A DNA stretch of 64,000 nt from an uncultured Verrucomicrobiota bacterium (GTDB lineage: Bacteria > Verrucomicrobiota > Kiritimatiellia > CAIVKH01): positions 62,001 to 126,000 of the forward strand of contig CALMUP010000027.1 in assembly GCA_937872895.1 (NCBI GenBank), given 5' to 3'. A program made the translations under genes and the position numbers. The first letter of the stretch is position 1; each line of letters begins with the position of its first letter. The notes under the pieces were generated by a model. That model saw only the letters and a program-made list of their open reading frames with translations, made no database searches and had not been told where the DNA came from. This document shows, piece after piece, positions 17,254-59,230 of the stretch.

Positions 17254-17322
17254 ATCTGCCCCCAATGTCTGACGCGAATATCCGCGCCGTATGAACCAAC
17301 TGCAGTCCGTGAAACGTTTTAA

Positions 17323-24996: not shown

Positions 24997-25057
24997 TCCG
25001 AAGGAAACCTCCGCGCGTCCCGCCGTGAACCGGCGGGACCACGGTGCCCTGACCATC

Positions 25058-28621: not shown

Positions 28622-29693
28622 GCGCACCGTCATCCCCTTCGGCCCGCAGCACCCGGTGCTGCCCGAACCGATCCACATCGACCTTGTCGTCGAGGACGAA
28701 CACGTGGTCGAGGCGATCCCCTCGTTCGGCTTCATCCACCGCGGCCTCGAGAAACTGGTGGAGAAGAAGGATTTCCACGAGTTCACCTACGTGGCCGAAC
28801 GCGTTTGCGGCATCTGCAGCTACATCCACGGCATGGGCTACTGCCAGGCGGTGGAGACGGTCATGAACATCCAGGTCCCGCTGCGGGCGAAATGGCTGCG
28901 CTCCTTCTGGTGTGAACTGTCGCGGGCCCACAGCCACCTGCTGTGGGCCGGCCTGCTGGCCGATGCCTTCGGCTTCGAGAACCTGTTCATGCAGTGCTGG
29001 CGGATCCGCGAGACCGTGCTCGATGTCATCGAGGAAACCACCGGCGGCCGTGTGATCTTCGGCTCGGCGAAGATCGGCGGCGTGCGCCGCGACGTGGACA
29101 ACGACACCCTGAAGCGCTGCGCCGCCAAGATCGCCTCCGCTGCCGTGGAATTCGAGGAACTCAAGAAGGTCTTCCGCGACGACTACTCGGTGAAGCAACG
29201 CCTGTGCGGGGTCGGCATGCTTTCCCGCGATGATGCCTGGGCCCTCGGCGCGGTCGGACCGACCCTGCGCGGCAGCGGCGTCCGCACCGACACCCGGCTC
29301 GAAGGTTATGCCGCCTATGGCGAACTGAAGATCGAACCGATCGTCGAGACCGCCTGCGACAGCTACGCGCGGTGCATGGTCCGGATGCACGAGATCACCC
29401 AGTCGTTCGACCTGATCCAGGAAATCGCCGCCCGCACACCCGAAGGACCGGTCTTTGAAAAACCCTCCGGATACCCGAACGGCGAATACTTCGCTCGCCT
29501 CGAGCAGCCGCGCGGCGAGGTGATCTACTACGTCAAGGGCAACGGCACCAAGAACCTCAGCCGGTTCCGCGTCCGCACCCCCACCTTCGCCAACATCCCG
29601 CCGCTGCTGCACATGCTGCAGGGCTGCGAACTCGCGGATGTCGGCCTGATCGTCCTGACCATCGACCCCTGCATCAGCTGCGCGGAACGCTAA
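28614..29693 (+). CDS. echE: Ech hydrogenase large subunit E ([NiFe] catalytic subunit)
   Basis: A 359-residue catalytic subunit homologous to NuoD but with both nickel-binding CxxC motifs. Cys65 and Cys68 lie in ERVCGICSYIHG, and Cys353 and Cys356 in the terminal DPCISCAER. Complex I NuoD lacks these cysteines, so this is a true hydrogenase. The protein stops three residues after the last nickel ligand and has no C-terminal extension, so endopeptidase processing is not expected. It reduces protons with electrons from ferredoxin, or runs in reverse. echF follows after two bases. Confidence 0.95.
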   Translation: MGERTVIPFGPQHPVLPEPIHIDLVVEDEHVVEAIPSFGFIHRGLEKLVEKKDFHEFTYVAERVCGICSYIHGMGYCQAVETVMNIQVPLRAKWLRSFWCELSRAHSHLLWAGLLADAFGFENLFMQCWRIRETVLDVIEETTGGRVIFGSAKIGGVRRDVDNDTLKRCAAKIASAAVEFEELKKVFRDDYSVKQRLCGVGMLSRDDAWALGAVGPTLRGSGVRTDTRLEGYAAYGELKIEPIVETACDSYARCMVRMHEITQSFDLIQEIAARTPEGPVFEKPSGYPNGEYFARLEQPRGEVIYYVKGNGTKNLSRFRVRTPTFANIPPLLHMLQGCELADVGLIVLTIDPCISCAER

Positions 29694-29695
29694 CC

Positions 29696-30148
29696 ATGAA
29701 ACCCCTCGCCATGACCAAGTTGTCGCTGAAGAGCCTGTTCAAGGCCCCGGCGACCGTCGCCTATCCGGCGATCCCGCGCGAGTACTTTCCCGGCACCCGC
29801 GGCCGCATCCTGATCGAGCCGTCCACCTGCAACCTCTGCGTCATCTGCGACGTCCGCTGCCCGACCAAGGCGATCAAGGTGGACCGCAAGGGACAGACCT
29901 GGACCATCGACCGCCTGCGCTGCATCCAGTGCGGCGCCTGCATCGAGGCCTGCCCCCGCAAATGCCTGACCAACGAGAACCGCTACTCCGACCCGGTCAC
30001 CGCCAAGGAAACACTGACCGTGCCGATTCCCTTCGTGCCCCCCGCCCCGAAGCCGAAACCGGCCGCTCCTGCCGCCGCCGCGCCCGCGCCGGCCCCGGCC
30101 CCTGCGACCACCCCGGAGATTAGCGATGCAAAAGACGGTCCCGTTTAG
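29696..30148 (+). CDS. echF: Ech hydrogenase subunit F (2x[4Fe-4S] ferredoxin-like)
   Basis: A 150-residue polyferredoxin homologous to NuoI. Two cluster motifs are present: CNLCVICDVRCP and CIQCGACIEACP. It is the electron entry point of Ech, receiving electrons from reduced ferredoxin. After residue 115 the protein ends in a tail rich in Pro, Ala and Lys (about 30 residues with PPAPKPKPAAPAAA), which is unusual and probably disordered. The tail's coding region overlaps the flavin reductase start by 23 bases. Confidence 0.93.
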   Translation: MKPLAMTKLSLKSLFKAPATVAYPAIPREYFPGTRGRILIEPSTCNLCVICDVRCPTKAIKVDRKGQTWTIDRLRCIQCGACIEACPRKCLTNENRYSDPVTAKETLTVPIPFVPPAPKPKPAAPAAAAPAPAPAPATTPEISDAKDGPV

Positions 30149-30644
30149 CATGGCCATCGAGTGCCGGTATCCCGAACAGATCGCGGTCTGCATCGCGCGT
30201 GACGCCGCCGGCATGCTCAACCCCATGACCATCGGCTGGTTCATGCCGGTCTCGATGCGCCCCCCGATGCTCGCCCTCGCCGTCGGCAAAACCCGCCATA
30301 CCCACGACGCCCTCCTCCATGCCCGCGCGTTCGTGCTCGCCCTGCTGTCCGAGCCACAAGCCGAGATCGCCCGCCACTTCGGCACCCACAGCGGCAGCAC
30401 CTGCGACAAGTTTGCCGCCATGCCCACGTGCCTCACCCGGTCGGCCGCGAAAGTGGACAGCGTGCTGCTGACCGAGGCGGTGGCAAACTTCGAGTGCGAG
30501 TTGCGCCAGACCGTCGACGCCGGCGACCACACCGTGTTTTTCGGCGAGGTGGTCTGCGCCACCGTGACCGACAACCCCCTCAACCGGATGTTCACCCTGG
30601 TCAAGGCGGAGCACCTGGACGGGGTTCGGCAGAGAACCACATAA
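30126..30644 (+). CDS. Flavin reductase-like FMN-binding split-barrel protein
   Basis: A 172-residue protein of the flavin reductase/flavoredoxin-like family. It shows the typical N-terminal region, the PMTIGWFMPVSMRPPMLALAVG stretch (conserved T-x-G-W-x-x-P-x-S-x-x-P-P-M) and a later FFGEVVCATV strand. The family binds FMN and either reduces free flavin or carries electrons. It lies between echF and hoxE, overlapping echF by 23 bases, so it is part of the hydrogenase transcript. It may exchange electrons between ferredoxin, flavin and NAD(P)H pools (inference). Substrate unknown. Confidence 0.82.
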   Translation: MQKTVPFSMAIECRYPEQIAVCIARDAAGMLNPMTIGWFMPVSMRPPMLALAVGKTRHTHDALLHARAFVLALLSEPQAEIARHFGTHSGSTCDKFAAMPTCLTRSAAKVDSVLLTEAVANFECELRQTVDAGDHTVFFGEVVCATVTDNPLNRMFTLVKAEHLDGVRQRTT

Positions 30645-30655
30645 CGCGAGGTACC

Positions 30656-31149
30656 ATGAACGCGACACCGGCAATGCCAGCGGTGGCTGGCGACGAGAAG
30701 CGGTGGCGGCTGGTCGAGGCCGTCATGCGCCGCTGCGGATTCCGCGGCGATGCCCTGATCGAAACCCTGCACGCCGTGCAGGAAACCTACGGCTACATCG
30801 ACGAGACCTCGATGCGCCGCGTCGCCGCCGCCCTGAACCTGCCCTTGAGCAAGGTATACGGCGTGGCCACGTTCTACCATTTCTTCCACCTCAAACCCCA
30901 GGGACGCCACACCTGCGTGGTCTGCCTCGGCACCGCCTGCTACATCAAGGGCGCCGATGCGATCCTCCAGCGGCTGCGCGAACGCTTCGGCATCGCCGCC
31001 GGCGAAACCACCCCGGACAAGCACCTGTCGGTCATGACCGCCCGCTGCGTCGGCTCGTGCGGCCTGGCCCCCGCCGTGGTGCTGGATCAACAGACCCTCG
31101 GCCACGTCGGGCCCGAGGACGTCGTCCACCACATCGAGGAACTCCCGTC

Positions 31150-31153
<4 letters not shown>
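30656..31153 (+). CDS. hoxE: Bidirectional hydrogenase diaphorase subunit HoxE (NuoE-like)
   Basis: A 165-residue thioredoxin-like [2Fe-2S] protein homologous to NuoE. The four cluster cysteines are seen in VCLGTACYIKGA (C-x4-C) and ARCVGSCGLAP (C-x3-C). The helical N-terminal domain has ETLHAVQETYGYIDE and VYGVATFYHFF, both standard for NuoE/HoxE. GAGG lies about five bases upstream of the ATG at 30656; an in-frame upstream extension lies within the flavin reductase gene and is rejected. The stop overlaps hoxF by four bases. Confidence 0.93.
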
Positions 31154-32759
<1,606 letters not shown>

Positions 32760-32763
<4 letters not shown>

Positions 32764-33485
32764 ATCCCGCCACCACCGCCAAGGTCATCACCCTGACCAT
32801 CGACGACCGGTCCGTCGGCGCACGCGAGGACCAGACCATCCTGCAGATCGCCCGCGAGAACAGCATCCATATCCCGACCCTCTGCTTCCTCGAGGGCCTG
32901 ACCCCGGCCGGCGCCTGCCGCCTGTGCCTGGTCGAGATCGTCGGGACCAGCCGCGTGCTTCCCGCCTGCACGACCTATGCCACGGAAGGCATGGTCATCC
33001 GCACCACCTCGCCCGCGCTCGAGGCACACCGCCGCACCGTGATCGAGTTGCTGTTCGCCGAAGGCAACCACATCTGCGCGGTCTGTGTCTCCAACGGCAA
33101 CTGCGAACTGCAGGACCTGGCCACCGAACTCGGGGTCAGCCACATCAACCTGCCGTACCTCAACCCGACACGGCCCGTCGATGCCAGCCACCCGCGCTTC
33201 ACCCTCGACCACAACCGGTGCGTACTCTGCGCCCGCTGCGTACGGGTCTGCGACGAGGTGGAGGGGGCGCATACCTGGGACATCATGGGCCGCGGAGTCG
33301 ATGCCCGCATCATCGCCGACCTGAACCAGCCGTGGGGCGAAGCCGCCTCCTGCACCAGTTGCGGCAAGTGTGTCCAGGTCTGTCCGACCGGCGCGCTCGT
33401 GGAAAAGGGCAAGGCGGTGGCCGAGATGCGCAAGCGCCACGCCCTCCCGAAACTGATCACCCGCCAGCAGGAGCATGGATCATGA
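32760..33485 (+). CDS. hoxU: Bidirectional hydrogenase subunit HoxU (NuoG N-terminal-like, iron-sulfur)
   Basis: A 241-residue iron-sulfur protein. An N-terminal [2Fe-2S] domain has Cys ligands in [15 protein letters not shown] and PACTTYA. A His-Cys3 [4Fe-4S] site follows ([15 protein letters not shown]), then two ferredoxin-type [4Fe-4S] motifs ([13 protein letters not shown] and [14 protein letters not shown]). It links HoxF to the HoxYH hydrogenase. Its length is the usual one for HoxU, far shorter than NuoG. It is coupled by four-base overlaps to hoxF and hoxY. Confidence 0.95.
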
Positions 33486-33988
33486 GCAAAATTCGTTTCG
33501 CCACCGTTTGGCTCGACGGCTGTTCCGGCTGCCACATGTCGTTCCTCGACATGGACCTGATCCTGCTCGACCTCGCCCCGAAGATCGACCTGGTCTACAG
33601 CCCGCTGGTCGACTTCAAGACCTTCCCCGACCAGGTCGATGTGACCCTCGTCGAAGGCGCGGTCAGCAGCACCGAGGACGAGGAGAAGATCCGCCACATC
33701 CGCCGCCACACGAAAACCCTGATCGCCCTCGGCGACTGCGCCGTCACCAGCAACGTTCCCGGCATGCGCAACACCTTCAAGCCGGAGACGATCATGCAGC
33801 ACGTGTACGGCGATGCCCCCCCGGTGCAGGTCATCCCGCCGCTGCTGCCCAAGAGCGTTCCGGTCCATCATATCGTGCCCGTCGACGTCTTCATTCCCGG
33901 CTGCCCGCCCTCCGCCGACACCATCGTGAAGACCTTGCTGGCCGTGCTCGAAGGCAAGCCGAACCCCGTACCACCCCGCTTTGGATGA
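33482..33988 (+). CDS. hoxY: Bidirectional [NiFe]-hydrogenase small subunit HoxY
   Basis: A 168-residue small subunit of group 3d hydrogenase. The proximal [4Fe-4S] ligands lie in [24 protein letters not shown] and [10 protein letters not shown]. It lacks the extra C-terminal clusters of uptake-type small subunits. It transfers electrons between HoxU and the NiFe centre in HoxH. Its ATG overlaps the hoxU stop; hoxH begins seven bases after its stop. Confidence 0.95.
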
Positions 33989-33995
33989 ACCGACC

Positions 33996-35420
33996 ATGAG
34001 CAAAACCATCCTCATCGATCCCGTCACGCGCATCGAGGGCCACTCGAAGATCACCATCACCCTCGACGACCAGGGCACCGTCTCCAACGCCCGGTTCCAT
34101 GTCACCCAGTTCCGCGGCTTCGAGCGCTTCTGCGTCGGCCGCCCGTTCGAGGAGATGCCGTCGCTCACCGCCCGCACCTGCGGCATCTGCCCGGTCAGCC
34201 ACCTCGTTGCCTCGGCCAAGGCCGGAGACATGCTGCTCGCCGTGGACATCCCGCCCGCCGCGAAACTGCTGCGCCGCGTGCTCAACACCGCACAGATGAT
34301 CCAGTCGCACGCGTTGAGCTTCTTCTACCTGTCGTCGCCGGACCTGGTGCTCGGCATGGACGCCGACCCGAAGGAACGCCACATCCTCGGCCTCGCCGCC
34401 CGACACGAAGCGGTTGCCCGCAACGGCATCCTGCTCCGCCAGTTCGGCCAGCAACTGATCGAGGACCTCGCCGGCAAACGCATCCACCCGGCCTGGGTGG
34501 TTCCCGGCGGCGTGAGCCGGCCCATGACCCACGAGCAACGCGCCAAGGTGCTGGAGAAGATTCCGGCCATGCTCGACATCGCCCGGCAAACCCTCGCCGC
34601 CTACCAGGACTGGGCGGTGAAGTTCGCCGACGAGATCCAGTACCTCGGCCAGCATCCCAGCCTGTACATGGGTCTGGTCACCGACGACGGCGGACTCGAA
34701 CACTACGACGGCCACCTGCGCATCATCGATGCCGACGGCACGGTGCTCGAGGAATCGATCGCGGCGGAGGACTACGCCCGCGTGATCGCCGAACAGGTGG
34801 AGCCCGACTCCTACCTGAAGTCGCCCTACTACCTGCCGCGCGGTTATCCCGGCGGCATGTACCGCGTCGGCCCGCTCGCCCGCATCAACATCGCGCGGAA
34901 GGCCGGCACGCCGATCGCGGACGAGGCCTTCACCGTGTTCCGCCAGTTGAACCCGAAGGGCCCGGTGGACGGCACCTTCCACTACCACCACGCCCGCCTG
35001 ATCGAGATCATCTTCGGGCTGGAGAAGATGAAGGAATGGTTCGAGGATCCGCTGTGCGTCGATACCCGTGTGCGTGCGGTGGCCGCGCCCAACAACCCGG
35101 TCGGCGTCGGCATCTCCGAGGCGCCGCGCGGCACCTTGCTGCACCACTACGAGATCGACGGGAACGGACTGATCACCAAGGTCAACATGATCATCGCCAC
35201 CGGCCACAACAACCTCGCCATGAACACCGGCATCCTGCAGGCGGCGAAACAGTTCGTGCGCGGCGACAAGATCCCCGAAGGCGCGCTGAACCGCGTCGAG
35301 GCGGTCATCCGCTGCTTCGACCCGTGCCTGAGCTGCTCCACCCATGCCTACGGACAAATGCCGCTGAAGATCGAACTCCGCGCCGCGGATGGCGCGGTGC
35401 TCGACGAAGCGATGCGGTAG
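33996..35420 (+). CDS. hoxH: Bidirectional [NiFe]-hydrogenase large subunit HoxH
   Basis: A 474-residue catalytic subunit of the NAD-linked group 3d hydrogenase. Nickel ligands are Cys62 and Cys65 ([10 protein letters not shown]) and Cys444 and Cys447 ([10 protein letters not shown]). After His450 a 24-residue C-terminal peptide remains, the piece normally removed by a dedicated endopeptidase during maturation; hoxW about 1.5 kb downstream is the candidate. ATG 33996 is preferred over the in-frame TTG at 33981, which would overlap hoxY. This is the last gene of the long array. Confidence 0.96.
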
Positions 35421-38483: not shown

Positions 38484-40761
<2,278 letters not shown>

Positions 40762-40765
<4 letters not shown>

Positions 40766-43167
40766 CCACCGAACGGCTGATGTACCTGCCCCCGGCCTTC
40801 CAGGATGCGGCCGACCATGGCCGGCTGATCCTGCGCGACGGGAGCACGGCGACGATCCGCCTGTCGCGGCGCGAGGACCTCCCAGCGGTGCGCGAGTTCT
40901 ACGCGAGGTTGTCGCCGCAGTCGCGGCGCATGCGCTTCTTCAGCGAGAGCAAGCCGGGCGAGGATGTGATGTTGTCGCTGTGCGACTCCTCCGATCCGCA
41001 CCGCGGCATGACCTTGCTGGTGTGGCGCCACCTCGACGGCAAACCGCGCATCGTCGCCTCCGGCTCGTACATCGCCGATGGCGCGCATAGCGCGGAGTTC
41101 GCGGTCGCGGTCGACGATGCCTTCCACGGCAAGGGCATGGGCGGCCTGATGCTCGAACGCCTGTCGGTGCTTGCCGCCTCGCACGGGTTCATCCACTTCA
41201 ACGCCTACACGCACGTCGCGAACACGCCGATGCTCGATGTGTTCCGCCATTCCGGCTTCCAGTTGCGCGAGCAGTTCGAGGACGGCCTGATCAAGGTGGA
41301 CCTGTCGCTGCTGCCCGGCGAGGCCAGTGCGATGCATGCCGCGCAGCGCGACCGCCTGTTCACCAAGGCCTCGATCCGCCCGTTCTTCTATCCGCGCTCC
41401 ATCGCGTTGATCGGCGCCTCGCAGAAGCCGGACAGCGTCGGGTTCCGCATGCTCAAGTCCGTCCTGCTCCAGCCCTTCGCCGGGGTGATGTATCCGGTGA
41501 ATCCGAATACCGGCAACGTGAGCGGAATCAAGACCTATGCCACCGCGGAGGACCTTCCGGAGGCGGTGGACCTGGCGGTCATCATGGTGCCGCGCGACGA
41601 GGTCGAGACGGTGGTGGACCAGTGTGCACGGCGCGGCGTCCGGGCCCTGATCGTCGTGTCGTCCGGGTTCGCCGAGGTGGACGCGGAAGGCCGAGCCAAA
41701 CAGCAGGCGCTGGTGGAGAAGGTGCGCGGCTACGGGATGCGGTTGCTCGGCCCGAACTGCCTCGGCGTGATCAACACCGACCCCGAGGTCCGGCTCAACG
41801 CCTCGCTGTCGGCCGAGGTCCCGGCGCGCGGCCGGGTCGCCCTGTCCTCGCAGAGCGGGGCGATCGGCATGACCCTGCTCCAGCTCGCCCGCCGCCGCAA
41901 CCTCGGCGTCTCGATGTTCATCAGCATGGGCAACAAGGCGGATGTCACCGGCAACGACCTGCTGTACTTCTGGGAGGATGATCCGTCCACCGATGTGATC
42001 CTGCTGTACCTCGAGTCGTTCGGCAACCCCCGCCGCTTCGGCCGCATCGCCCGCGAGGTCAGCCGCCGCAAACCGATCGTCTGCGTGAAATCCGGCCGCT
42101 ACCGCGCCTCGCCCGAAGAGCACGCAGTGGCGGGCCTGTTCGACCAGACCGGGGTGATCCGGGCGGACAGCCTCGAGGACATGTTCGACATCGCGACCCT
42201 GCTGGGCGCACAACCGTTGCCCGGCGGCGAGCGGATCGGGATTGTTACGAATTCCCGCGGCGCCGGGGTGTTGTGCGCGGACGCCTGCGCTGCCGCCGGA
42301 CTGAACCGAGCCGTCACCGAACCCCTGGTCGATCTCACCGCCAACGCCACCCCGGACGACTACCAGCGCGCCCTCGGCGGCGTGCTCGCCGCGCCGGACC
42401 GCGACGCCGTGATCGTGATCTACACCCCGGTGACTCCCGCGCCGCCCGGCCCGGTGCTCGACGCCATCGCCCGCGCCCTCGGCGGCCAACCTGATGCCGC
42501 CGCACGCAAACCGGTGGTCCTGGTCATGATGACCGAAAGCACCGGAGCCACCGTCTTGCGGCACGGCGAACGCTCGTTCCCGGTGTATCCCTTCCCCGAA
42601 CGCGCGGCCGACACACTGGCCGCCGCCGCCCGCTACCGGGCCTGGCGCGATGCCCCGCCCGGCCTGATGCCGGCCTTCGCCGACCTGGATCCGGCGGTGT
42701 TGCGCGAGCAACTGTCCGGTCAACCTCCTGCGACCGACGGGGCCTGGCTGGACCGTGAAGCCGCGGAGCGACTGCTCGCCAAGGCCGGGATCCGGTGCGG
42801 ATCCCGACCCGCACCGGACGCGGTACCGGTTGAATTGGAAGTCAACGAGGACCCGCTGTTCGGGCCGGTCATGAACATCAGCCTGGCCGGCTACCACCGC
42901 GACGTGCTCGGCGACATCGCCTACCGGATGGCCCCGCTGACCGACCGCGAGGCCGAGGCCATGGTGCGCAGCATCCGCGGTTTCCCGCTGCTCAAGGACC
43001 ACGGCGCGGACCTCGGCGCGCTCCAGGAGCTGATCCTGCGGCTCTCCCAGCTCATCGAGGCCCTGCCGGAGATCAACGCGGTGCGGCTTGCCCCGGTCCA
43101 GGTCAGCCCGGCCGGTGGCGGCTGTCTGGTAGGCAATCCCCTGATACGCATTTCGGCCACCCCTTAA
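40762..43167 (+). CDS. GNAT acetyltransferase fused to a degenerate ADP-forming acyl-CoA synthetase
   Basis: An 801-residue fusion. An N-terminal GNAT domain (about residues 25-190) has the acetyl-CoA loop DDAFHGKGMGGLML. It is followed by a CoA-binding Rossmann domain (FYPRSIALIGASQKPDSVGF) and a succinyl-CoA-ligase-like domain (LLGPNCLGVINTDP, LSSQSGAIGMTLL). Compared with the intact paralogue downstream, the SHTGS loop carrying the phosphorylated histidine is deleted (about 12 residues) and the ATP-grasp core is missing. ATP formation is therefore unlikely. By analogy with PatZ/Pat, the CoA-binding part may regulate protein lysine acetylation by the GNAT domain. It is coupled to hypF by a four-base overlap. 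Confidence 0.85.
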
Positions 43168-43240
43168 CCTGCAATTCCCTTTGGGTTTTTCCGCCAATCT
43201 GGGATAGTAACTCCGAGTGGGACCAATCCCGCCGTATACC

Positions 43241-43501
43241 ATGTGTTTAGCCATTCCAGGTCAGATCCAGTCGATCCGCGAAGGCGATGCCTTTTCCCGC
43301 AGCGGAAAGGTCTCCTTCGGCGGGGTCGTGCGGGAGGTCAACCTGGCGTATGTTCCCGCCGCGGTCGTTGGCGACTACGTCATGGTCCATGTCGGATTCG
43401 CCCTCAGCATCGTGGATGCCGAGGAGGCCGCCCAGGTGTTTTCCTATTTGCAACAGATGGATGAACTCAACGAATTGAACGAAGGACACGCCACATCATG
43501 A
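43241..43501 (+). CDS. hypC: Hydrogenase assembly chaperone HypC
   Basis: An 86-residue chaperone of the HypC/HupF family. The essential N-terminal Cys2 is present ([12 protein letters not shown]), and the OB-fold segment [20 protein letters not shown] is typical. HypC carries the Fe(CN)2CO unit with HypD and binds the large-subunit precursor. The start at 43241 is required to place Cys2 at the terminus; an in-frame upstream start adds eight residues. It is separated from the previous gene by 73 bases and overlaps the next by four. hypD, normally adjacent, is absent. Confidence 0.95.
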
Positions 43502-46275
43502 GCCAGGACATTCCGGTTACCCCGCACTCGACGAAGAAGGACCTCGTCATCGATCCCGCCCGTGACATCTTCCACTACGGCGAGAACCCGCTGAACTACA
43601 TCTTCGCCCCGAAGACGGTGGCGGTAATCGGCGCGACCGAGCAGCAGGGCAGCGTCGGCCGCACCGTGTTGTGGAACCTGATCAGCAACCCGTTCGGCGG
43701 CGTGGTGTTCCCGGTGAACCCGAAACGCCCGAGCATCCTCGGCATCAAGGCCTACCCGAGCATCGCCGCCGTTCCGGAGAAGGTGGACCTCGCGGTGATC
43801 GTGACCCAGGCGCAACTGGTGCCGAACCTGGTGGCGGAGTGCGTGGCCGCCGGGGTGAAGGGCTGCATCGTCATCTCCGCCGGGTTCAAGGAGCTGGGTG
43901 AACCGGGCGAAAAACTCGAGCGCGAGATCCTTGTCCATGCGCGGCGCGGCGGCATGCGCCTGATCGGCCCGAACTGCCTCGGCGTGATGAACCCGATCAC
44001 CGGCCTGAACGCGACCTTCGGCGGTGTGATGGCCCGGCCCGGCAACGTGGCCTTCATCAGCCAGAGCGGCGCGCTGTGCACCGCGGTGCTCGACTGGAGT
44101 ATCCGCGAGCAGGTTGGCTTCTCCTCCTTCGTGTCGATCGGCTCGATGCTGGACGTCGATTTCGGCGACCTGATCGACTACGTCGGCAACGATCCGCGCA
44201 CCCAGAGCATCGTCATCTACATGGAGTCGATCGGCAACGCCCGCAACTTCCTGTCGGCCGCCCGCGAGGTCGCGCTGAACAAGCCGATCATCGTGATCAA
44301 GGCCGGCCGCACCGAGGCCGCCGCCAAGGCTGCCGCCTCGCACACCGGTTCGTTGACCGGCAGTTTCGAGGTGCTCGATGCCGCCTTCATGCGCGCCGGC
44401 GTGCTGCGGGTGAATTCAATTTCCGAACTGTTCAACATGGCCGAAGTGCTCGGCAAGCAGCCGCGCCCGAAAGGTCCGCGCCTGACCATCCTGACCAACG
44501 CGGGCGGCCCCGGGGTGCTCGCCACCGACGCCCTGATCGTCAGCGGCGGCGAACTCGCCGAGGTGTCGAAGAAGACCTTCGCCGAACTCAACAGCTTCCT
44601 GCCGCCGCACTGGAGCCGCAACAACCCGATCGACATCCTCGGCGACGCCGGGCCGGACCGCTACGCGAAGGCGCTCGAGATCGCCGCAAACGATCCGAAC
44701 AGCGATGGCCTGATGGTCATCCTGACCCCGCAGGACATGACCGATCCGACCCAGACCGCCGAAAAACTCAAGCCCTACGCGAAGATCGAGGGCAAGCCGG
44801 TCCTGGCCAGCTGGATGGGCGGCCCGGTGGTTTCCGCCGGCAACGACATCCTCAACCGCGTCGGCATCCCGACCTTCAACTATCCCGACACCGCCGCGCG
44901 CACCTTCACCTACATGTGGAAGTACAGCGACAACCTGAACCACCTCTACGAGATCCCGGAACACTCCGAGATGGACACCGGCGACATGGGGAGCGGTCGT
45001 GAAACCGCCAACGCCATCATCACCGAGGTACGCAAGCAGGGCCGCACCACCCTCACCGAGTTCGAATCGAAGAAACTGCTCGCCGCCTATGGCATCCCCA
45101 CCGTGCCGACGGAGATCGGCACCACCCGCGACGAGGCGGTGAAGCTGGCCGAGGCGATGGGTTATCCCGTCGTGTTGAAGCTGCATTCGGAAACCATCAC
45201 CCACAAGACCGACGTCGGTGGCGTGAAGCTGAACCTCGGCAGCCGCGAGGCCGTGCTCAAGGCGTTTGACGAGATCCTCGCCTCGGTGACCGAGAAGGCC
45301 GGCGCCCAGCATTTCCAGGGCGTGGCCGTGCAGAAGATGATCAAGATGGAAGGCTACGAGATCATCGTCGGCAGTTCGATCGATCCGCAATTCGGCCCGG
45401 TACTGCTGTTCGGCAGCGGTGGCCAGCTCGTCGAGGTGTTCAAGGACCGCGCCCTCGCCCTGCCCCCCCTGACCCGCACCCTGGCCCGCCGCAAGATGGA
45501 GAAGACCAAGATCTTCACCGCGCTCAAGGGCGTGCGCGGCCGCAAGCCGGTGGACATGGCGGCGATGGAGCGGATCATGGTCCGGTTCAGCCAGATGGTG
45601 GTGGAGAACCCGTGGATCTGCGAAAGCGACATCAACCCGCTGCTCGTCTCGGCCGAACAGATCATCGCGGTGGATGCCCGGGTGCTGCTGCATCCGCTGG
45701 ACATGAAGGAGGAGGACCTTCCCAAGCCGGCCATCCGCCCCTACCCCTCCCAATACCAGACCGACGCCCACCTCAAGGACGGCACCCCGGTGCACATGCG
45801 TCCGATCCGCCCGGAGGACGAACCGCTGATGGTCGAGTTCCACAAGACCCTGTCCGACCGCAGCGTGCTCCAGCGCTACACCCAGGCTATCACGCTCAGC
45901 GAGCGCATCACCCACCAGCGGCTCACCCGCATGTGCTTTATCGATTACGACCGCGAAATGGCCCTGGTCGTCACGACCAAGAAACAACCGGTTCCGGAAA
46001 TCATCGCGGTGGGACGCCTCAGCAAGATCCGCGGCACCGGCGAAGCCCGCTTCGCCCTGCTGGTCAGCGACGCCTGGCAGCAACGCGGGCTCGGCAAGGT
46101 GCTGCTCAGCCGCCTCCTCGACATCGCCCGGCGCGAAACCGGCATCGACCGCGTGGTCGGCGAAATGCTGAAGGACAACGTCGGCATGCAGCACATCTGC
46201 CGCAACGTCGGCTTCGCCCTCGCGGACGACCCGGCCACCGGCATGATCCGCGCCAGCATCAACGTGCACTCCTGA
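43498..46275 (+). CDS. ADP-forming acetyl-CoA synthetase fused to GNAT acetyltransferase
   Basis: A 925-residue fusion. The order is CoA-binding domain ([18 protein letters not shown]), ligase domain ([27 protein letters not shown]), the active loop [11 protein letters not shown] with phospho-histidine His282, and an ATP-grasp beta domain ([20 protein letters not shown], then [14 protein letters not shown]). A C-terminal GNAT domain (about 760-925) has [14 protein letters not shown]. The intact catalytic parts suggest it converts acetyl-CoA, ADP and phosphate to acetate, CoA and ATP. This would complete pyruvate fermentation downstream of NifJ. The GNAT order matches PatZ-type lysine acetyltransferases, so a regulatory acetylation role is the alternative. 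It starts within the hypC stop. Confidence 0.88.
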
Positions 46276-50967: not shown

Positions 50968-51423
50968 CTACTTGATGGCCCCGCCGATGAAGACCATGAC
51001 GAACAGGGCGACGGTTTCAATGACGCCGAGCACCATCAGGTAGTTGCCGAATCCCTTGCCGGTCTCGGCCAGGGCATCGGCCGCACCCGCACCGGCCTTG
51101 CCTTGCAGCCAGGCTGAAAGGCCCATGGCGATCCCGCCGAACAGGCCGGCGCCGATCATGGCGGGCCAGAAGGACGGGTTCGCGGCGACCGCGGTGTTGA
51201 TGTTGCCGAGCAGGATCATGCCGTAGATCGTCTGCGACAGCGGTGCGCCGACGAAGGTCACCAGGATGAACGGCGCGGCCTTGCTCTGTGCGAAGCATTT
51301 CTTCCACGCGCCCACCGCGGCGGCACCGGCGGCACCGGTGCCGAGGGCCGACCCCATGGCCGCGAAGGCGATCGCGGCGGCCGCGCCCAACTTACCCAAA
51401 CCGATCATGACTTGCTCTTCCAT
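50968..51423 (-). CDS. ntpK: V-type ATP synthase subunit K (rotor proteolipid)
   Basis: A 151-residue membrane ring subunit with two helical hairpins. Only one ion-binding carboxylate is present: Glu136 in the last helix (GVIETVALF). Other residues match the Na+ site of Enterococcus hirae NtpK: Ser63 and Gln64 (GAPLSQTIYG; Thr64 and Gln65 there), Tyr67, and Gln107 (WLQGKAGAG; Gln110 there). AAGGAG lies seven bases upstream of the ATG. It is the last gene of the operon, 21 bases after subunit I. Na+ use is an inference from these residues. Confidence 0.93.
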   Translation of the reverse strand: MEEQVMIGLGKLGAAAAIAFAAMGSALGTGAAGAAAVGAWKKCFAQSKAAPFILVTFVGAPLSQTIYGMILLGNINTAVAANPSFWPAMIGAGLFGGIAMGLSAWLQGKAGAGAADALAETGKGFGNYLMVLGVIETVALFVMVFIGGAIK

Positions 51424-51444: not shown

Positions 51445-53202
51445 TCATCCGTTCTTGCGTTTGCGGGAAAAGGGTTCGTAGCCGTGGCCGGTCCACTGGA
51501 CGCCGAGGTGCGACGAGAACTCGAGGGTGTTCAGGCGCACCCCGTGCACGAGGATGCCCATGAACCCGAGCACGATGTTGAGGGTGTGGCCGGCGAGCAG
51601 GATCAGGGCGGCGCCGAGACCCGACCACAGGCTGGACACGCCGCTGGCCAGGGCCATGCTGTTGAAGGCCTGGGCGACGGCGAGCGAGGCGAAGCCGACC
51701 GCGAACAGGCGGATGTAGGACACGACATCGACGAAGTTGCCGACGATGTTCAGCGGGAACATCACGTGCTGGAACCATTCCTCCTTGAGCTTGGCCGGAG
51801 GGGTCATGAACAGCAGGATCAACCCGGAGCTGGCCACCGCGACCCAGGTGATCCACGGCGGCATCGGCTGGTTCAGCACCAGCTGGTGGGCGACGAAGTA
51901 CATGGTCCAGGTCATGCCGATCCAGCCGATCTGGGCGAGTGCGACCGGTTGCGGGGCCCAGCGGATGATGTTCCACAGGTGGGCGCAGGTCAGGTGTACC
52001 GCGCCGATCAGGAAGCAGAGGCTCTTCATGTTCTCCGGATCGGTGAGCCAGGTGATGATGAATCCCTCGAGGAGCGGAGGTACCCGGGCCGCGCCAAAAT
52101 AGGTGCCGGTGATCACGCCCCAGACGATGGTGCCGACGCTGTTGATGGTCAGGAGAGTGAAGGGTTCGGACGGGGCGGTTTTCCATTTGCGCCGGGCCAG
52201 ACGGGTGGCGACAAGGAACAGGGCACCATACCCGGCATCGCCGATCAGGATGGCAAAGAACAGGCTGAAGTACACGAGGAAGAGCAGGCTCATGTCCACC
52301 TCGCGGTAGCCGGGGAGGACGTTGATCCCGCGAAGGACGGACTCGATCGGGCGAATCCAGCGCGGATTGCGGATCAAGGTCGGCACGTCCTCGTCCGGGG
52401 CGGGGTCATCGATCTGCACCCCCCACCCTTCGCGGCGGGCGGCGGCGAAAACGGTGTCGGCTTGATCGGCCGGCAGGTAACCGCGCAGGTAGGCGATCGG
52501 GGCGGCGTTGCCCATGCCGTCGCGTGCCTCGAGGAAATGTACGGTATCCTCAAGCTGGTCGCGCAATGCGGCCACCACCTCGTGGTCGCCCTCGTGCAGG
52601 CGCAGCGAGGCGACACAATCGTCGAGGCGGGCTCGGTATTCGGCGATCTGCCCATCAACCTCGGCGAGCGAGCGCTCGGGCAGGCGGAAATCTGGCACGG
52701 GAAACGCGGTATCGGCGGAGCGGGAAACCAGGGCGAAGCGTGCGCCATTCTTGTCGCGGTTGAGTTCGACGAGGGCGGCCCCGTCGGGTGCCACCGGCTC
52801 CACGCCAGGAGAGAGGGCATACAGACGGATGAAGATGCCGTGAGCGTGCAGGTCGCGAACGAGGCCCGGGTCGAATGAGCCGAACGGCTCGATGCGGGCG
52901 CGCTCGGCCAGCAGGGCTTCCAAGGCATCCTCAATGTCCTTCTTGTCCTGCAGCATGGTCCAGACCAGGCTGACGATCACGTCGGCGGAAAGACCGGAAG
53001 GCGGCACAACGGGCTTGCGCGGCATCGTCTCGAGGGCGCGCTTGACGTAGGCCAGGTGGTTGCGCGAGGTCTCGAGGGCGCGGCTGTCGGGCGGCTTGAG
53101 GCTGGTCACATGGACCACGCCGAGGTCCTGCAGCGAGCGCAGGGTGGCATCGCGCGACGAGGCGAGACACAGCAGGGTCAGGCGCTTCATCGGGACGATC
53201 AT
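51445..53202 (-). CDS. ntpI: V-type ATP synthase subunit I (membrane stator)
   Basis: A 585-residue subunit homologous to eukaryotic subunit a. A soluble N-terminal half (MKRLTLLCLASSRDATLRSL) with coiled-coil segments is followed by about seven hydrophobic helices from residue 320 onwards (SLLFLVYFSLFFAILIGDAGYGALF). The essential arginine-bearing ion channel lies in the C-terminal region around SYIRLFAVGFASLAVA. It holds the stator and forms the ion path with the K ring. The start overlaps the subunit D stop by four bases; the C-terminus is highly charged. Confidence 0.93.
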   Translation of the reverse strand: MIVPMKRLTLLCLASSRDATLRSLQDLGVVHVTSLKPPDSRALETSRNHLAYVKRALETMPRKPVVPPSGLSADVIVSLVWTMLQDKKDIEDALEALLAERARIEPFGSFDPGLVRDLHAHGIFIRLYALSPGVEPVAPDGAALVELNRDKNGARFALVSRSADTAFPVPDFRLPERSLAEVDGQIAEYRARLDDCVASLRLHEGDHEVVAALRDQLEDTVHFLEARDGMGNAAPIAYLRGYLPADQADTVFAAARREGWGVQIDDPAPDEDVPTLIRNPRWIRPIESVLRGINVLPGYREVDMSLLFLVYFSLFFAILIGDAGYGALFLVATRLARRKWKTAPSEPFTLLTINSVGTIVWGVITGTYFGAARVPPLLEGFIITWLTDPENMKSLCFLIGAVHLTCAHLWNIIRWAPQPVALAQIGWIGMTWTMYFVAHQLVLNQPMPPWITWVAVASSGLILLFMTPPAKLKEEWFQHVMFPLNIVGNFVDVVSYIRLFAVGFASLAVAQAFNSMALASGVSSLWSGLGAALILLAGHTLNIVLGFMGILVHGVRLNTLEFSSHLGVQWTGHGYEPFSRKRKNG

Positions 53203-53801
53203 GACGCGGTGCCCTCCGCGGTCTTCTTCTTGGCGATCTTGCCACGGGCCACCTCGGAGGTCTGGACGTCGCCCAGGTAGATGCGGATCATGCGGATGTT
53301 GTTGCGCGCCTCGGGGATCTTCACCTTCTCGAACAGGTTCACGCGCTGGCTGGTCGTGCGGAGCTCGTCGGCGATGAGCTGGCGCTGCTCGCGCAGGATG
53401 TTCAACTCGATCTTCATGCGCAAGGCGCGCTCGATCGCGGCCAAGCCGTCGTCGTGCCAGCTGTCGGTGGCATGCAGGTCGAGCGGGAGCCGGTTCAGGA
53501 CGACCTCTTTCAAGACCGGGATGTTCACGCCGGCGATGTTCCCGGTGGTGGTCTTGACCTCGGCGAGGTGGAGGTGGCGGGCGAGATCGACCGGCACGGA
53601 GAACAACTTGATCCAGGGGCCGATCTCCTCGACGAATTTTCGCTGCTCATCCTGCTTGGCCTCGATCCGCTGGTCGAGCAGGCGCAACTCGAGTTGCAGT
53701 TGCTGCTTCTTGAGCAGCAATGTGGGCAGGTAGCGCTTGAACCGCTTCAGGGCGTCGCGCTGGGCCTTCAACTCGTTTTTCGTATATTTGATCTTGGCCA
53801 C
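53199..53801 (-). CDS. ntpD: V-type ATP synthase subunit D (central stalk)
   Basis: A 200-residue subunit forming the central rotor shaft. Long helical N- and C-terminal segments are visible (ELKAQRDALKRFKRYLPTLL and RQLIADELRTTSQRVNLFEK), and the C-terminal NIRMIRIYLGDVQTSEVARG is typical. It lies after an 80-base gap downstream of subunit B, the largest gap inside the operon. It overlaps subunit I by four bases. Confidence 0.93.
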   Translation of the reverse strand: MAKIKYTKNELKAQRDALKRFKRYLPTLLLKKQQLQLELRLLDQRIEAKQDEQRKFVEEIGPWIKLFSVPVDLARHLHLAEVKTTTGNIAGVNIPVLKEVVLNRLPLDLHATDSWHDDGLAAIERALRMKIELNILREQRQLIADELRTTSQRVNLFEKVKIPEARNNIRMIRIYLGDVQTSEVARGKIAKKKTAEGTAS

Positions 53802-53881
53802 GGATGGTGATCTTGAATGTTAGATTTTCGGGATGGACCTGGTCCGGATCTTCGTTCCGTTTTCCGTATTCCATCCTTTAT

Positions 53882-55174
53882 TTATTTCGGCCAGAACTTC
53901 TCCACCAGCTTGGTCGGGATGCCGGTTTCGGCGCGGTCAAAACAGTCGGCGAGGATGGCCCAGCCGAGGTCGAGGGCCTTCTCGATCGGGATGTTGACGG
54001 TGAGGTCCATCATCTCCGCTTCGAAGCGCTGGCCGTACTTCAGCAGCTTCGAATCCCAGCCGCTCATGCGGAAGCCCATCGACTGCTTCTCCAGCGTGTC
54101 CTTGTAGGAGGCGTAGAGCTGGATCATGCTGTCCATGATGGTGCGGTGATCCTCGCGGGTGCTCTTGTTCACGAGCTGCTTGAGGCGGCTCAGCGAGCCG
54201 AAGGGCTCGATGCGGCCGTTGCGCAGGTAGAACTGGCCCTCGGTGATATAACCGGTATTGTCGGGGACCGGGTGGGTCACGTCGTCGCCGGGCATCGTGG
54301 TCACGGCGAGGATGGTGATCGAACCTGCCGTATCGAAGTCCACCGCCTTCTCGTAGCGCGAGGCAAGCTGGCTGTACAGGTCGCCGGGGTAGCCGCGGTT
54401 CGACGGGATCTGCTCCATGGTGATGGCCACTTCCTTCATCGCATCGGAGAAGGTGGTCATGTCGGTGAGCAGAACGAGCACCCGCTTGTCCTGCAGGGCG
54501 AACTGTTCGGCCACGGCGAGGGCGAGGTCGGGCACCATCAGGCACTCGACCACCGGGTCGGAGGCGGTGTGGATGAACAGGACCGAACGCGACAGGGCGC
54601 CCTGGCTCTCCAGCGTGTCGCGGAAAAACAGGTAGTCGTCGTGTTTAAGCCCCATGCCGCCGAGCACGATCACATCGACCTCGGCCTGCATGGCGATGCG
54701 CGCGAGCAGCGGGTTGTAGGGTTCGCCGGCCACCGAGAAGATCGGGAGCTTCTGCGATTCGACGAGGGTGTTGAACAGGTCGATCATCGGGATGCCGGTG
54801 CGGACCATGTTCTTCGGGATGATGCGTTTGGCGGGATTGGCCGAGGGACCGCCGATCGGGGTCATGTTCTCGGTAATGGCGGGACCGCGGTCGCGCGGGG
54901 TGCCGCTGCCGGTAAACACGCGGCCGAGCAGCGCGTCGGAGAACGGGACGCGCATGGTGTGGCCGAGGAAGCGGACCTCGGAATCGGTGGCGATGCCGCG
55001 GCTGCCCGCGAAGACCTGCAGGTACACGCGTTCACCGTCGAGGCGGATGACCTGGGCCAGTGAGGTGCCGAAGGGCGAGCGGACCTCGGCCAGCTCGCGG
55101 TAGCCGACGCCGTCGGCCTTGACCACGATGACGTTGCCGGCGATCTGTTCGATGTTGGTGTGGACCTTACGCAT
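53882..55174 (-). CDS. ntpB: V-type ATP synthase subunit B (non-catalytic)
   Basis: A 430-residue non-catalytic hexamer subunit. As expected for B, the Walker A loop is replaced ([19 protein letters not shown]). Other family segments are [13 protein letters not shown], the [19 protein letters not shown] region (signature [11 protein letters not shown]) and [15 protein letters not shown]. The start overlaps the subunit A stop by eight bases. Length is slightly below the 460 residues of many B subunits, which is normal for the Chlamydia/Bacteroidetes type. Confidence 0.94.
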
Positions 55175-56903
55175 AGTCGGCGACCTCCGCGAGGGACTTC
55201 TCGATCAGTTCCTCGGTCTGCTTGAACTCGGGTTTGTCCCGGCCGATCCGGTTCCAGTCCTTCGTCATCTGGGTCAACTTCTGGAAGTAAAGGCGGGCCT
55301 CGTCCTTCTCGGTGAAGTGCATCCGGGTCTTGAGGATCTTGAGGATGCGGGCGAAGACGTATTCCTGACGGTCGCCGGGGGTCGCGCTGTCCACCTCGTC
55401 GAACGCGTCCTGCTGCAGGTACACGGCGTCGAGGTACTCGCCCTTCAGATAGAGGATGAAGTCATCGATGGAGGTGCCCTCCTCGCCGACCACCTTCATC
55501 ATCTGGCTGACCTCGTTGCCGGTGCGCAGCAGCTTGCGGGCGAAGGCTACATCGTCGCGGTTGAACACGCCCTCGTACTTGCTCCAGCTTTCCAGCGGAT
55601 GGATGGCCGGGTAGCGGCGGGCGTCGGAGCGTTCGCGCGAGAGGCCGTGGAACGCACCGACCACCTTCAGCGTGCTCTGGGTCACCGGTTCCTCGAAGTT
55701 GCCGCCGGCGGGAGAAACCGTGCCGCCGATGGTGACCGAGCCGGTGCCACCGTCGTGGAGGCGGACCAGGCCGCCGCGCTCGTAGAAGGCGGCGATGACC
55801 GATTCGAGGTAGGCGGGGAAGGCTTCCTCGCCGGGGATTTCCTCGAGGCGGCCGGACACTTCGCGCAAGGCCTGGGCCCAGCGCGAGGTCGAGTCGGCGA
55901 GCAGCAGCACGTGCAGGCCCATCTGGCGGTAGTACTCGGCGATGGTCACCGCGGTGTACACCGAGGCCTCGCGCGCGGCCACCGGCATCGAACTGGTGTT
56001 GCAGATGATCAGCGTGCGCTCCATCAGGCTCTTGCCGGTGCGCGGATCGGTCAGGTCGGGGAATTCGCGCAGGGTCTCGACCACCTCGCCGGCGCGTTCG
56101 CCGCAGGCGGCGATGATGACGATATCGACATCGGCATTGCGGCTGGTGATCTGCTGGAGCACGGTCTTGCCGGCGCCGAAGGGACCGGGAATGCAGTAGG
56201 TGCCGCCGCGGGCGATCGGGAAGAAGGTATCGACGATACGGATCTTGGTGACCATCGGATCGACCGGGCGCAGGCGCTCGGCATAAGCCCGGATCGGCAT
56301 CTTGACCGGCCAGCGCTGGATCATGGTCAGCTCCTGGCGCTCGCCGTGTTCGTTTACCAGCGTGGCGATCGGGTCGGCCACGGCGTACTCGCCGGTGGCG
56401 GCGATGGATTCGACCTTCCATGCACCGGTCAGGCGGAACGGAGTCATGATGCGGTGCTCGAAGATACCTTCGGGCACGGTGCCGAGGGTCTGCGCGGCGG
56501 TCACGGTGTCGCCGGCCTTCACCGCAGGCTTGAACGGCCAGCGCCGGGTTCGGTTCAGCGGGTCAAGGTAGGTTCCGCGCTGCAGGAAGAAGCCGCACTG
56601 CTCCGCAAGGTCGGGCAGCGGGTTCTGGAGGCCGTCGTAGATGCTGCCAAGCAGGCCGGGGCCGAGCTCGACGCTGAGCAACTCGCGGGAGAACTCGACC
56701 GGGGAACCGACCCGGAGGTCGGTGGTGTCCTCAAACACCTGCAGGTCGGCCACGTCGCCGCGCACGCGGATGACTTCGGCCTTGAGCCGGGTCGAACCGG
56801 TCACCGCATAGGCCACTTCGTTCTGGGTCACCGCCGAGGCGAAACGGACGCGCAACAAGTTGCCGTTCACGCCGACGACGGTGCCGGGCACCGCTTCACT
56901 CAT
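55167..56903 (-). CDS. ntpA: V-type ATP synthase catalytic subunit A
   Basis: A 578-residue catalytic subunit. Walker A is [12 protein letters not shown], with the catalytic [15 protein letters not shown] loop and the A-specific [11 protein letters not shown] insertion region. The C-terminal helical domain is present ([20 protein letters not shown]). The start at 56903 (MSEAVPGTV) is preferred over an in-frame ATG at 56915 since it leaves GGGTG about six bases upstream and matches the family N-terminus. It lies 28 bases downstream of the DUF2764 gene and overlaps subunit B. Confidence 0.95.
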
Positions 56904-56931
56904 ACAATCACCCATTCCATATGGTTCTTCT

Positions 56932-57504
56932 TCATACCTGGGAAAGTCCCGACCACGCCGATACCTCCTGCGCGCTGACACCGACCTGCTCGACCAGATC
57001 CTCGAACCGTTCGCGGCCGATTTCAGGGGTCAAGGCGCGCCAGTGTTCATTGAGGGCGAGTTTCACGGCGTAGGCAAGCAAGGCCGGCAGGGCAAACGCA
57101 TCGCCGGCGCTCAACTCGTCGGCAAGATTCCAGCGATAGCGGTCGAGCGCGAGTTCTCGTTCCAGCGGGTTTGCGCGTGAAAAGGCATCGCTTACCGCGG
57201 CCTCCGCATCGACACGGAAACCCTCGTGGCTCTGGAGGAATTTCTTCTCGTCCACCCCGAGCCGGAGCGCGCGGGCCCGAACCACCGCATTGCGCAACTG
57301 CCGGTCGGCATGCAACCAGGCCCGGCCGAAATCGCTCTGCACGTCGTCCAGCCGAGCGTCGAGCAGCGCGGTCACTTCCGCGAGGTCGTCGCCCACGAGT
57401 TGCTGTTCGCACTCGGCGATGAATCCGGCGCGGCTCATCGCCGCCGGCTGGGAAAACACCAGGGCGGGCAAACTGGCAATCAGGTAGTAATAGCGACTGC
57501 TCAC
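56932..57504 (-). CDS. DUF2764 protein of the V-type ATPase operon (possible subunit C equivalent)
   Basis: A 190-residue protein. The GTG start at 57504 gives the typical DUF2764 N-terminus SSRYYYLIASLPAL; the frame extends upstream through subunit E but is a shadow there. The rest is helical and acidic (RNAVVRARALRLGVD, RERELALDRYRWNLADEL-like segments seen as ERELALDRYRWNLADEL). Genes of this family occupy the position between subunits E and A in V-ATPase operons of chlamydiae, spirochaetes and Bacteroidetes. The operon has no recognisable C, F or G gene, so this protein may fill the subunit C role (inference). Confidence 0.85.
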   Translation of the reverse strand: MSSRYYYLIASLPALVFSQPAAMSRAGFIAECEQQLVGDDLAEVTALLDARLDDVQSDFGRAWLHADRQLRNAVVRARALRLGVDEKKFLQSHEGFRVDAEAAVSDAFSRANPLERELALDRYRWNLADELSAGDAFALPALLAYAVKLALNEHWRALTPEIGRERFEDLVEQVGVSAQEVSAWSGLSQV

Positions 57505-57517
57505 GGATCGCCGGACC

Positions 57518-58138
57518 TCAGGAAGCACGTGATACGTTATAGACGGTTTCCGCGAGAACCGGGCGCAGGTATGCGGCGACGGCATCGGCGATGGCTTCGC
57601 GGGAGAAATCGTGTTCAATGTGCCGGTCGTGGCGGCGAACCTTGAACCCCTTCTGGGTGCGGGGATCAACCGTGATCGCCAGTCCACCGGCCAGCGCGGC
57701 GGCGAATTCCTGCTTGAAGAAGTCCGTGATCGCGGCGCGATCGGCCTCGCCGACGATCACCTCGAGATCCTTGGGCAATCCACCTTCCCTGGCATAGACC
57801 TCCATGATCCGGGCCAGCACCGGTCGCAGAGTTGCCGCATCCAGTGCCTTCCCGGCGGCCTCGCGGGTCAACTGCTCAAAGATCTGTTCTACCCCGCGGC
57901 CCACCGAGATCAGCAAGTCGCGGGCTGCCTGGGAAAGCGCCTGCTCGCTGCGTTGGGTGAAGAGCTTGGCATCCTGGTCGGCCTTCTCCACGATGGCTGC
58001 CGCCTTGGCCTCGGCGTCCTTGACCAGCGCGGCCGCCTTTTCGCGGGCCTGCGCGACAATTTTAGCCGCCTGCTGTTCCCCGGTGTCAACGGCCTCGCGT
58101 TGGATACGTTCAATCAGATGCTGCAGTTCTTCAGCCAT
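57518..58138 (-). CDS. ntpE: V-type ATP synthase subunit E (peripheral stalk)
   Basis: A 206-residue peripheral stalk subunit. The N-terminal half is a long Ala/Glu/Lys-rich helix (AAKIVAQAREKAAALVKDAE) that would form the stalk coiled coil. The C-terminal globular part has LEVIVGEADRAAITDFFKQE and QKGFKVRRHD typical of VatE/NtpE. First gene of the operon; GGGAG lies about nine bases upstream of the ATG at 58138. The upstream 405-base gap should hold the operon promoter. Confidence 0.9.
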   Translation of the reverse strand: MAEELQHLIERIQREAVDTGEQQAAKIVAQAREKAAALVKDAEAKAAAIVEKADQDAKLFTQRSEQALSQAARDLLISVGRGVEQIFEQLTREAAGKALDAATLRPVLARIMEVYAREGGLPKDLEVIVGEADRAAITDFFKQEFAAALAGGLAITVDPRTQKGFKVRRHDRHIEHDFSREAIADAVAAYLRPVLAETVYNVSRAS

Positions 58139-58543
58139 GTTCCAACTCCCTCTCGGTGCGTCGTATCCGCAACCAGCGGACAGTGCGATAGTTGGTTCCA
58201 CTCTATCTGCTGATCAGCGAAAGAAAAGTCTAATCAGGAGGATTGCACCGGGATCCGGATCCGCTAGCCGACCGGTTTCCCGCCCACCCGGCACACTCGA
58301 ACCATGGACCCAAGGACAGGCCGAGCAGGCATAGGTCAATCAGGCATAGGGACAGAGCTGGTGGGGTGATCGATTCGATGGAGGATCCTGATATGGAACC
58401 CTTCCAGATGGCATAAGCACGCATTGTTACTCTAGTTCGCAGTTCGGTGCGGGATCGGGCTGTTGAGGTGACATCCGGCACGGCTGGCGCTTGCGCATTG
58501 CCGGGCATCGTGTTAGTTCTACACCGAACAGGAGATTGCTGTT
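58139..58543. other. Intergenic region between divergent V-ATPase and cyclophilin genes
   Basis: About 405 bases without a convincing gene. It must hold promoters for the leftward V-ATPase operon and the rightward cyclophilin gene, but no clear -35/-10 pair stands out. A 10-base direct repeat CAGGCATAGG occurs at 58326-58335 and 58341-58350 (15-base period). Short frames in the region lack family resemblance and good ribosome sites. Confidence 0.6.
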
Positions 58544-59230
58544 ATGCGTACGATCTGGATGTTGACGGTATTGGCGGGTTGGATGACGTTCGGCGCGGTG
58601 CCCGGGTGGACCGAGGAGATGACCACGACCGAGGAAACAACCGATGCCACGGCGGAAACCACCCAGCCACCCGCCGATGAATCACCCGCCCCCGAGGCGC
58701 AACCCCAACCCGAAGGAGAGAACCCCGTGGTCATCATCAAAACCGCCAAAGGCGATATCAAGGTCAAGCTGTTCGCCGACAAGGCCCCCGTCACTGTCGC
58801 CAATTTCCTTCAATACGTGGACAACGGGCACTATGAAGGTACGATCTTCCACCGCGTCATCGCCAACTTCATGATCCAGGGTGGTGGTTTCACCCCGGAC
58901 ATGCAGCAGAAGCCGACCCTCTCCCCGATCAAAAACGAGGCGCAGAACGGGCTCGCCAACAAACGCGGCACCATCGCGATGGCCCGCACCCAGGTGATCG
59001 ACAGTGCAACCAGCCAGTTTTTCATCAACACGGTGGACAACGAGTTCCTGAACTTCCGCTCCCCCGACATGTCCGGCTTTGGCTACTGTGTGTTCGGCGA
59101 GGTGGTTGAGGGCATGGACGTGGTGGACGCGATCCGCGCCGTCCCCACCACCCGTGTCGGTCCGCACGGCGATGTGCCGGCCGAACCGGTCGAGATCATT
59201 CAGGTCGTCCGGGTCGGCACCGGCGAATAA
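58544..59230 (+). CDS. Exported cyclophilin-type peptidyl-prolyl isomerase
   Basis: A 228-residue protein. An N-terminal signal sequence ([20 protein letters not shown]) is followed by a linker of about 40 residues rich in Thr, Glu and Pro. The cyclophilin domain begins at about residue 60 ([15 protein letters not shown]) and carries [28 protein letters not shown] and [10 protein letters not shown], which include the catalytic Arg-Phe-Gln region. It would help folding in the periplasm or outside the membrane. AGGAG lies about 10 bases upstream of the ATG. A Ser/Thr kinase gene follows after 18 bases. Confidence 0.93.

Follow-up and report, generated by a model that had tools for sequence, protein, structure and literature searches.

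A DUF2764-containing V-ATPase with a predicted Na+-carrying rotor in an uncultured Kiritimatiellia bacterium

Introduction

The Na+ V-ATPase of E. hirae has a rotor subunit, NtpK, that folds as a double hairpin with a single Glu. According to the accessible parts of the papers, to which all citations in this text refer, the enzyme has F and G subunits (PMC3879392) and makes ATP on a sodium-motive force with a Na+/ATP ratio of 3.2, the expected value being 10/3 (PMC12018189). The V/A-ATPase of Thermus thermophilus belongs to the same enzyme class but moves H+; its c subunit is a single hairpin, and the enzyme has the AC39-type C and F families.

Two bacterial V-ATPases come closer in gene content. 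In Bacteroides fragilis, which belongs to another phylum than the host studied here, a seven-gene V-ATPase with few subunits has a DUF2764 protein as its second gene, and NQR is present; its K subunit has been aligned to the Na+ residues of NtpK, and the accessible text lists DUF2764 as of unknown function and the enzyme as uncharacterised (PMC10197588). In Chitinispirillum alkaliphilum, a haloalkaliphile of the Fibrobacterota and in this unlike our host, the genes were given as 'KIDBACE', which is the order found here read in reverse, with the second gene labelled C but no structural argument for this in the accessible text, and the enzyme was called Na+-dependent from its K motif (PMC4814513). 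A Na+ prediction for such a V-ATPase has also been phrased for Joyebacterota (PMC13271369). Since the prediction is in print for these other phyla, the kind of enzyme is already known, and the K subunit described here is a good but unsurprising further example of a predicted Na+ V-ATPase. A literature search combining Kiritimatiell-, Rnf and V-type found no paper.

Results and Discussion

A seven-gene V-ATPase operon

The DNA analysed here, a 64,000-nucleotide stretch from an uncultured Kiritimatiellia bacterium (the window), carries a row of V-ATPase genes on the minus strand in the order E-DUF2764-A-B-D-I-K. The last gene, K (50968–51423), encodes a rotor protein of 151 aa that matches the NCBIfam model for V-type ATP synthase subunit K over its curated cut-off (4.2e-58) and the Pfam family ATP-synt_C (PF00137, 1.2e-10). 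The six genes beside it span 51445–58201 and encode subunit I, the stator a subunit (51445–53202; NCBIfam subunit I 2e-117, below the model's cut-off), subunit D (53199–53801; PF01813 3.2e-36), subunit B (53882–55174; NCBIfam 9.2e-223), the catalytic subunit A (55167–56981, with the start probably at about 56903; NCBIfam 9.4e-231), the DUF2764 protein (56932–57504, in an ORF that opens at 57687, with 57504 as the likely start; PF10962 3.1e-11) and subunit E (57518–58201, likely start 58138; NCBIfam subunit E 3e-39, below the model's cut-off). Rfam models gave neither a Na+ riboswitch nor any other family at gathering score in the window; upstream of the operon, at 58000–58700, a loose threshold returned only BTH_s19, far below its gathering score, which we took as a chance hit.

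Of 80 named loci, the best of 405 relatives in a search with aligned sequences from the class, most of those on long-enough contigs have the same seven-gene order. These loci are labelled Kiritimatiellia, Omnitrophota, Spirochaetes, Planctomycetota, Fibrobacter and others; gene order was read from stop-to-stop frames, and some gene limits overlap. Four loci, all Fibrobacteria-like (L043, L047, L051 and L088), showed just I and K as recognisable neighbours.

Neither the AC39-type subunit C (PF01992) nor subunit F (PF01990) has a match in the genome, whose assembly is 95% complete, in contrast to E. hirae with its F subunit. As controls, PF01992 and PF01990 match in 7 and 6 of 14, respectively, and both match in the control genome of Thermus composti, a relative of T. 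thermophilus.

DUF2764 as a candidate subunit C/d

The DUF2764 family has no function in Pfam. Its gene sits between those for E and A, the operon slot of subunit C, which we take to be the place of ntpC in E. hirae as well. When an AF2 model of the protein (pLDDT 93) was compared with 463 chains by VIA-align, the five best were all V-ATPase subunits C/d (Z 7.3–8.1, rmsd 5.6–6.1, 160–165 of 190 residues aligned), with T. thermophilus subunit C as the best match, and the next row followed at Z 4.0; Foldseek alone was weak and not significant. Sequence proof of this identity failed: a profile-profile comparison with PF01992, using 19 AC39 proteins of the phylum, was not significant (P 0.09), and one of 38 DUF2764 members matched PF01992, at E 0.044. 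Judged by its modelled fold and operon slot, DUF2764 is probably a compact subunit C/d, which would answer a question left open in the accessible part of the Bacteroides fragilis paper (PMC10197588).

The K subunit carries the residues of the NtpK Na+ site

An AF2 model of K, built from a 37-row alignment (mean pLDDT 95), consists of four long helices (residues 3–45, 52–81, 83–121 and 125–150). It superposes on NtpK (2bl2_A) over 147 residues with Z 17.1, rmsd 2.4 and about 22% identity in the structural alignment. NtpK was found by the structural search; PDB sequence searches, whether with K itself or with its alignment, did not return it at the thresholds used. Eukaryotic H+ c subunits fit the model equally well and score as high as NtpK, and therefore fold alone cannot decide the ion.

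An earlier note on this DNA had matched Ser63, Gln64, Tyr67, Gln107 and Glu136 of K to Thr64, Gln65, Tyr68, Gln110 and Glu139 of NtpK. These positions are exact, and all five residues share their columns with the NtpK counterparts in a MAFFT alignment of the window K, 94 homologues and NtpK, whose residue letters were verified against PDB 2bl2. (Eight sequences were left out of this set: four duplicates as well as L035, L058, L079 and L084, for which no start was assigned.) BLASTP and hhalign pair Pro61, Gln64, Tyr67, Gln107 and Glu136 with NtpK as MAFFT does, the pairing of Q107/E136 with Q110/E139 being common to all three methods. Could the match be an artefact of aligning a membrane protein of low complexity? 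The scores against NtpK alone are weak (BLASTP E 7e-4, hhalign 2.4e-3), and around residue 63 the gaps of BLASTP and hhalign differ from those of MAFFT. However, all five residues are paired by MAFFT and four of them, residue 63 excepted, by both other methods; the spacing within the motifs is identical to that in NtpK (63/64/67 against 64/65/68; 107–136 against 110–139), and the predicted fold matches NtpK, which makes such an artefact hardly credible. Moreover, Gln64, Tyr67, Gln107 and Glu136 are invariant in 20 sequences (the window and 19 class relatives) with a mean column identity of only 70%, so that their conservation is not due to chance.

The observation of one carboxylate per double hairpin also holds, in the membrane sense: the acidic residues of K are E2, E3, D116, E120 and E136, of which Glu136 is the sole one within a predicted membrane helix, D116 and E120 lying at the loop end of helix 3 in the model. 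Position 62, where single-hairpin c subunits have their Glu, is a Leu in K, and helix 2 has a hydroxyl, a Gln and a Tyr ([ST]Q..Y) in S63, Q64 and Y67. Two site positions differ from NtpK, Thr64 being replaced by Ser63 and Leu61 by Ala60. The first is a mild difference; the ligand matching Thr64 in an F-type Na+ rotor is Ser66 (PMC2359735). At the backbone-ligand position, Ala60 resembles neither Leu61 of NtpK nor the Met at residue 61 that is listed for H+ rotors in a Halomonas paper using the same residues (PMC9006882).

Conservation and ion specificity

Across 95 K sequences, a set that draws on the best 80 of 405 relatives and therefore leans to close relatives, the five site positions read SQYQE in 67, TQYQE in 25, SQYME in two and AQYVE in one. 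Thus, [ST]QYQE is kept in 92 of the 95, from many phyla, and the three exceptions are second, tandem K genes. In the comparison with Na+ and H+ rotors that the earlier note had proposed as a check, the polar residues of K fall in the NtpK ligand columns. The H+ rotors are different there: the five columns hold I, I, Y, I, E in human c, and Thermus c keeps T, Q and E with L for Gln65 and F for Tyr68, so that both are without Gln65 and without one or more of the other ligands. Mulkidjanian and co-workers (PMC2359735) give a rule for the Gln65 column: predicted Na+ rotors have a polar residue there, H+ rotors a Leu, Ile or Val. By this rule K, with a polar residue at this column, is of the Na+ type.

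It is conceivable that the V-ATPase moves H+ in the cell, its Na+ ligands being inherited from a Na+ ancestor or used to bind H3O+. Three residues of the site, Thr, Gln and Glu, are present in the H+ rotor of Thermus, and some H+ enzymes have partial Na+ ligand sets (PMC2359735). In K, however, those 92 of 95 sequences, drawn in part from the best 80 of 405 relatives, have the complete set with Gln65 and Tyr68, and the F-type c subunits of the same class, unlike K, have mostly lost Gln32 and Ser66. We therefore regard proton transport as unlikely. A rotor that carries either ion, mainly Na+ at high salt and mainly H+ when Na+ is low, seems about as improbable. In the absence of Na+, translocation of H+ is possible for Na+-dependent ATPases (PMC2359735); as to the site, this reading is compatible with the main one. 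Sequence, conservation and genome context give good support to the predicted Na+ specificity, and the K rotor very probably moves Na+ rather than H+.

Other ion pumps in the same genome

The F-type c subunit of the same genome reads I-E-G-V-F where the I. tartaricus Na+ rotor has Q-E-S-T-Y, and is therefore of the H+ type. On a different contig from the V-ATPase lies an nqr cluster, in which NqrF, E, C, B and A, the five subunits scanned, score over their NCBIfam cut-offs and an ORF occupies the place of NqrD. The genome also has two membrane pyrophosphatase genes in tandem. Their Na+ assignment is based on GNTTA and DLYESY/DLFESY motifs, the latter presumably holding the residue that corresponds to Glu246 of the Thermotoga pyrophosphatase. 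The role of this Glu246 is treated in PMC9408878. Nearly all of the NCBIfam models concerned are named 'Sodium-translocating pyrophosphatase', and therefore the name is no independent evidence for Na+. Oxaloacetate decarboxylase was considered as a further Na+ pump and discarded, PF03977 having no match in the genome.

In the window itself, the region 25025–35420 contains a group-4 (Ech-like) hydrogenase-like cluster. It encodes a NuoL-like protein, a small subunit and a large subunit that has the motifs RVCGIC and DPCISC. The region also holds genes for a NuoF-like flavoprotein and for another NiFe large subunit, closest to VhuA (NCBIfam); genes for HypA, HypF and HypC lie downstream of it. 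The earlier note had suggested that a Na+ cycle could connect Ech pumping with ATP synthesis or Na+ export. Both of these uses are possible, but Ech as the Na+ partner finds no support: the cluster is present, and yet NQR is a more direct source of Na+ and thus the better partner of the V-ATPase.

Distribution of K and candidate Na+ pumps in the class

K is encoded in 55 of 67 genomes of the class. A full site is present in at least one K of 54 of these 55, and the K of the 55th breaks off after SQY where its contig ends; a 170-aa match in G067 that reads LLFAV (L208) was set aside as not K. The NqrB/RnfD family is found in 47 of the 55 genomes with K versus one of the 12 without (p 6e-7) and, by family majority, in 23 of 25 versus one of five (p 0.003), in Fisher tests on genome counts that consider kinship only via the family tally. 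Eight of the 55 had no NqrB/RnfD match, and six of these belong to one family (f10). Membrane pyrophosphatases show no association with the presence of K (45 of 55 versus 11 of 12).

Another, single-hairpin c subunit is present in 38 of the 55 K-bearing genomes, and in 35 of these 38 none of the c's has the Na+ set. The F-type c subunits of the class are mostly without Gln32 and Ser66, a group that also takes in canonical A/V-type single-hairpin c subunits (L109, L110, L117 and L138, which adjoin a subunit-I relative, and L139, by similarity). In the remaining 17 K-bearing genomes no other c subunit was found. Of the 12 genomes lacking K, five (G003, G008, G027, G038 and G048) encode an F-type c with Q/E32, E65 and S/T66, as if one Na+ ATPase had replaced another, to judge from these residues. 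Four of them, G008, G027, G038 and G048, belong to family f2; they have no V-type K, and their F-type c reads QESLY at the Na+ ligand columns.

rnf genes and second K genes

In six of the 55 K-bearing genomes (G010, G019, G043, G059, G065 and G071), rnfABCDGE lies directly downstream of K on the same strand. The named locus L033 likewise has rnfABCDGE right after K, and L083 appears to be the G010 contig; Rnf names are from NCBIfam for these two. Complete sets on the K strand are located at L083:6107–11458 and L033:10416–15433 and in L198–L202, with rnfE running to the end of the stretch in L201. Rnf can pump H+ in some organisms, and the linkage is for this reason only indirect. In L073, a membrane pyrophosphatase follows K.

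Two tandem K genes occur in L198, L200 and L201 (G065, G043 and G019, respectively) as well as in L037, L070 and L080. In such pairs one gene has the full site, and the Gln107 position of its partner is occupied by Lys (TQYKE), Met (SQYME) or Val (AQYVE); the two products may assemble into mixed rings with fewer Na+ sites.

A model for the enzyme

The operon E-DUF2764-A-B-D-I-K is very likely to encode a rotary V-ATPase that is reversible and has a Na+-binding, Na+-carrying K ring; for its working, we infer Na+ binding, ring size and direction as follows. Each K would form a four-helix double hairpin with one ion site, in which Glu136, by analogy with NtpK, would be the main Na+ ligand. The shell would be completed by three side chains, those of Ser63, Gln64 and Gln107, together with a backbone carbonyl close to Ala60, and Tyr67 would stabilise Glu136. 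With one site per double hairpin, the Na+/ATP ratio would be low; a ring of ten subunits, like that of E. hirae, would give about 3.3. Such a low ratio suits ATP-driven Na+ export and still permits ATP synthesis on a strong sodium-motive force, which would most likely come from NQR and perhaps from the pyrophosphatases too, while the separate H+-type F-ATPase would use the proton gradient. As this F-ATPase is present alongside, ATP-driven Na+ export may be a little likelier than ATP synthesis in this organism.

If the model is true, two ion circuits operate in parallel in a large uncultured lineage, one of Na+ via NQR/Rnf and the V-ATPase and one of H+ via the F-ATPase. Where the search found no c subunit besides K, as in 17 of the 55 K-bearing genomes, there may be no rotary ATPase other than the Na+ V-ATPase, which would then have to make ATP and serve both ways. 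We tentatively suggest a wider possibility, which we hold to be a good deal less certain than the Na+ specificity of K: DUF2764 V-ATPases of many phyla might form a separate, minimal, Na+-dedicated branch without recognisable F and with DUF2764 as a shrunken C that serves as the rotor socket. This branch would often be wired to NQR/Rnf, and a second K in which Lys, Met or Val replaces the Gln ligand would enter some rings and change their Na+/ATP gear.

Elsewhere in the window, two large neighbouring ORFs at 40747–46275 look alike, the first having succinyl-CoA-ligase-like, ATP-grasp and GNAT domains, and an ORF of 2009 aa occupies 11638–17667 on the minus strand.
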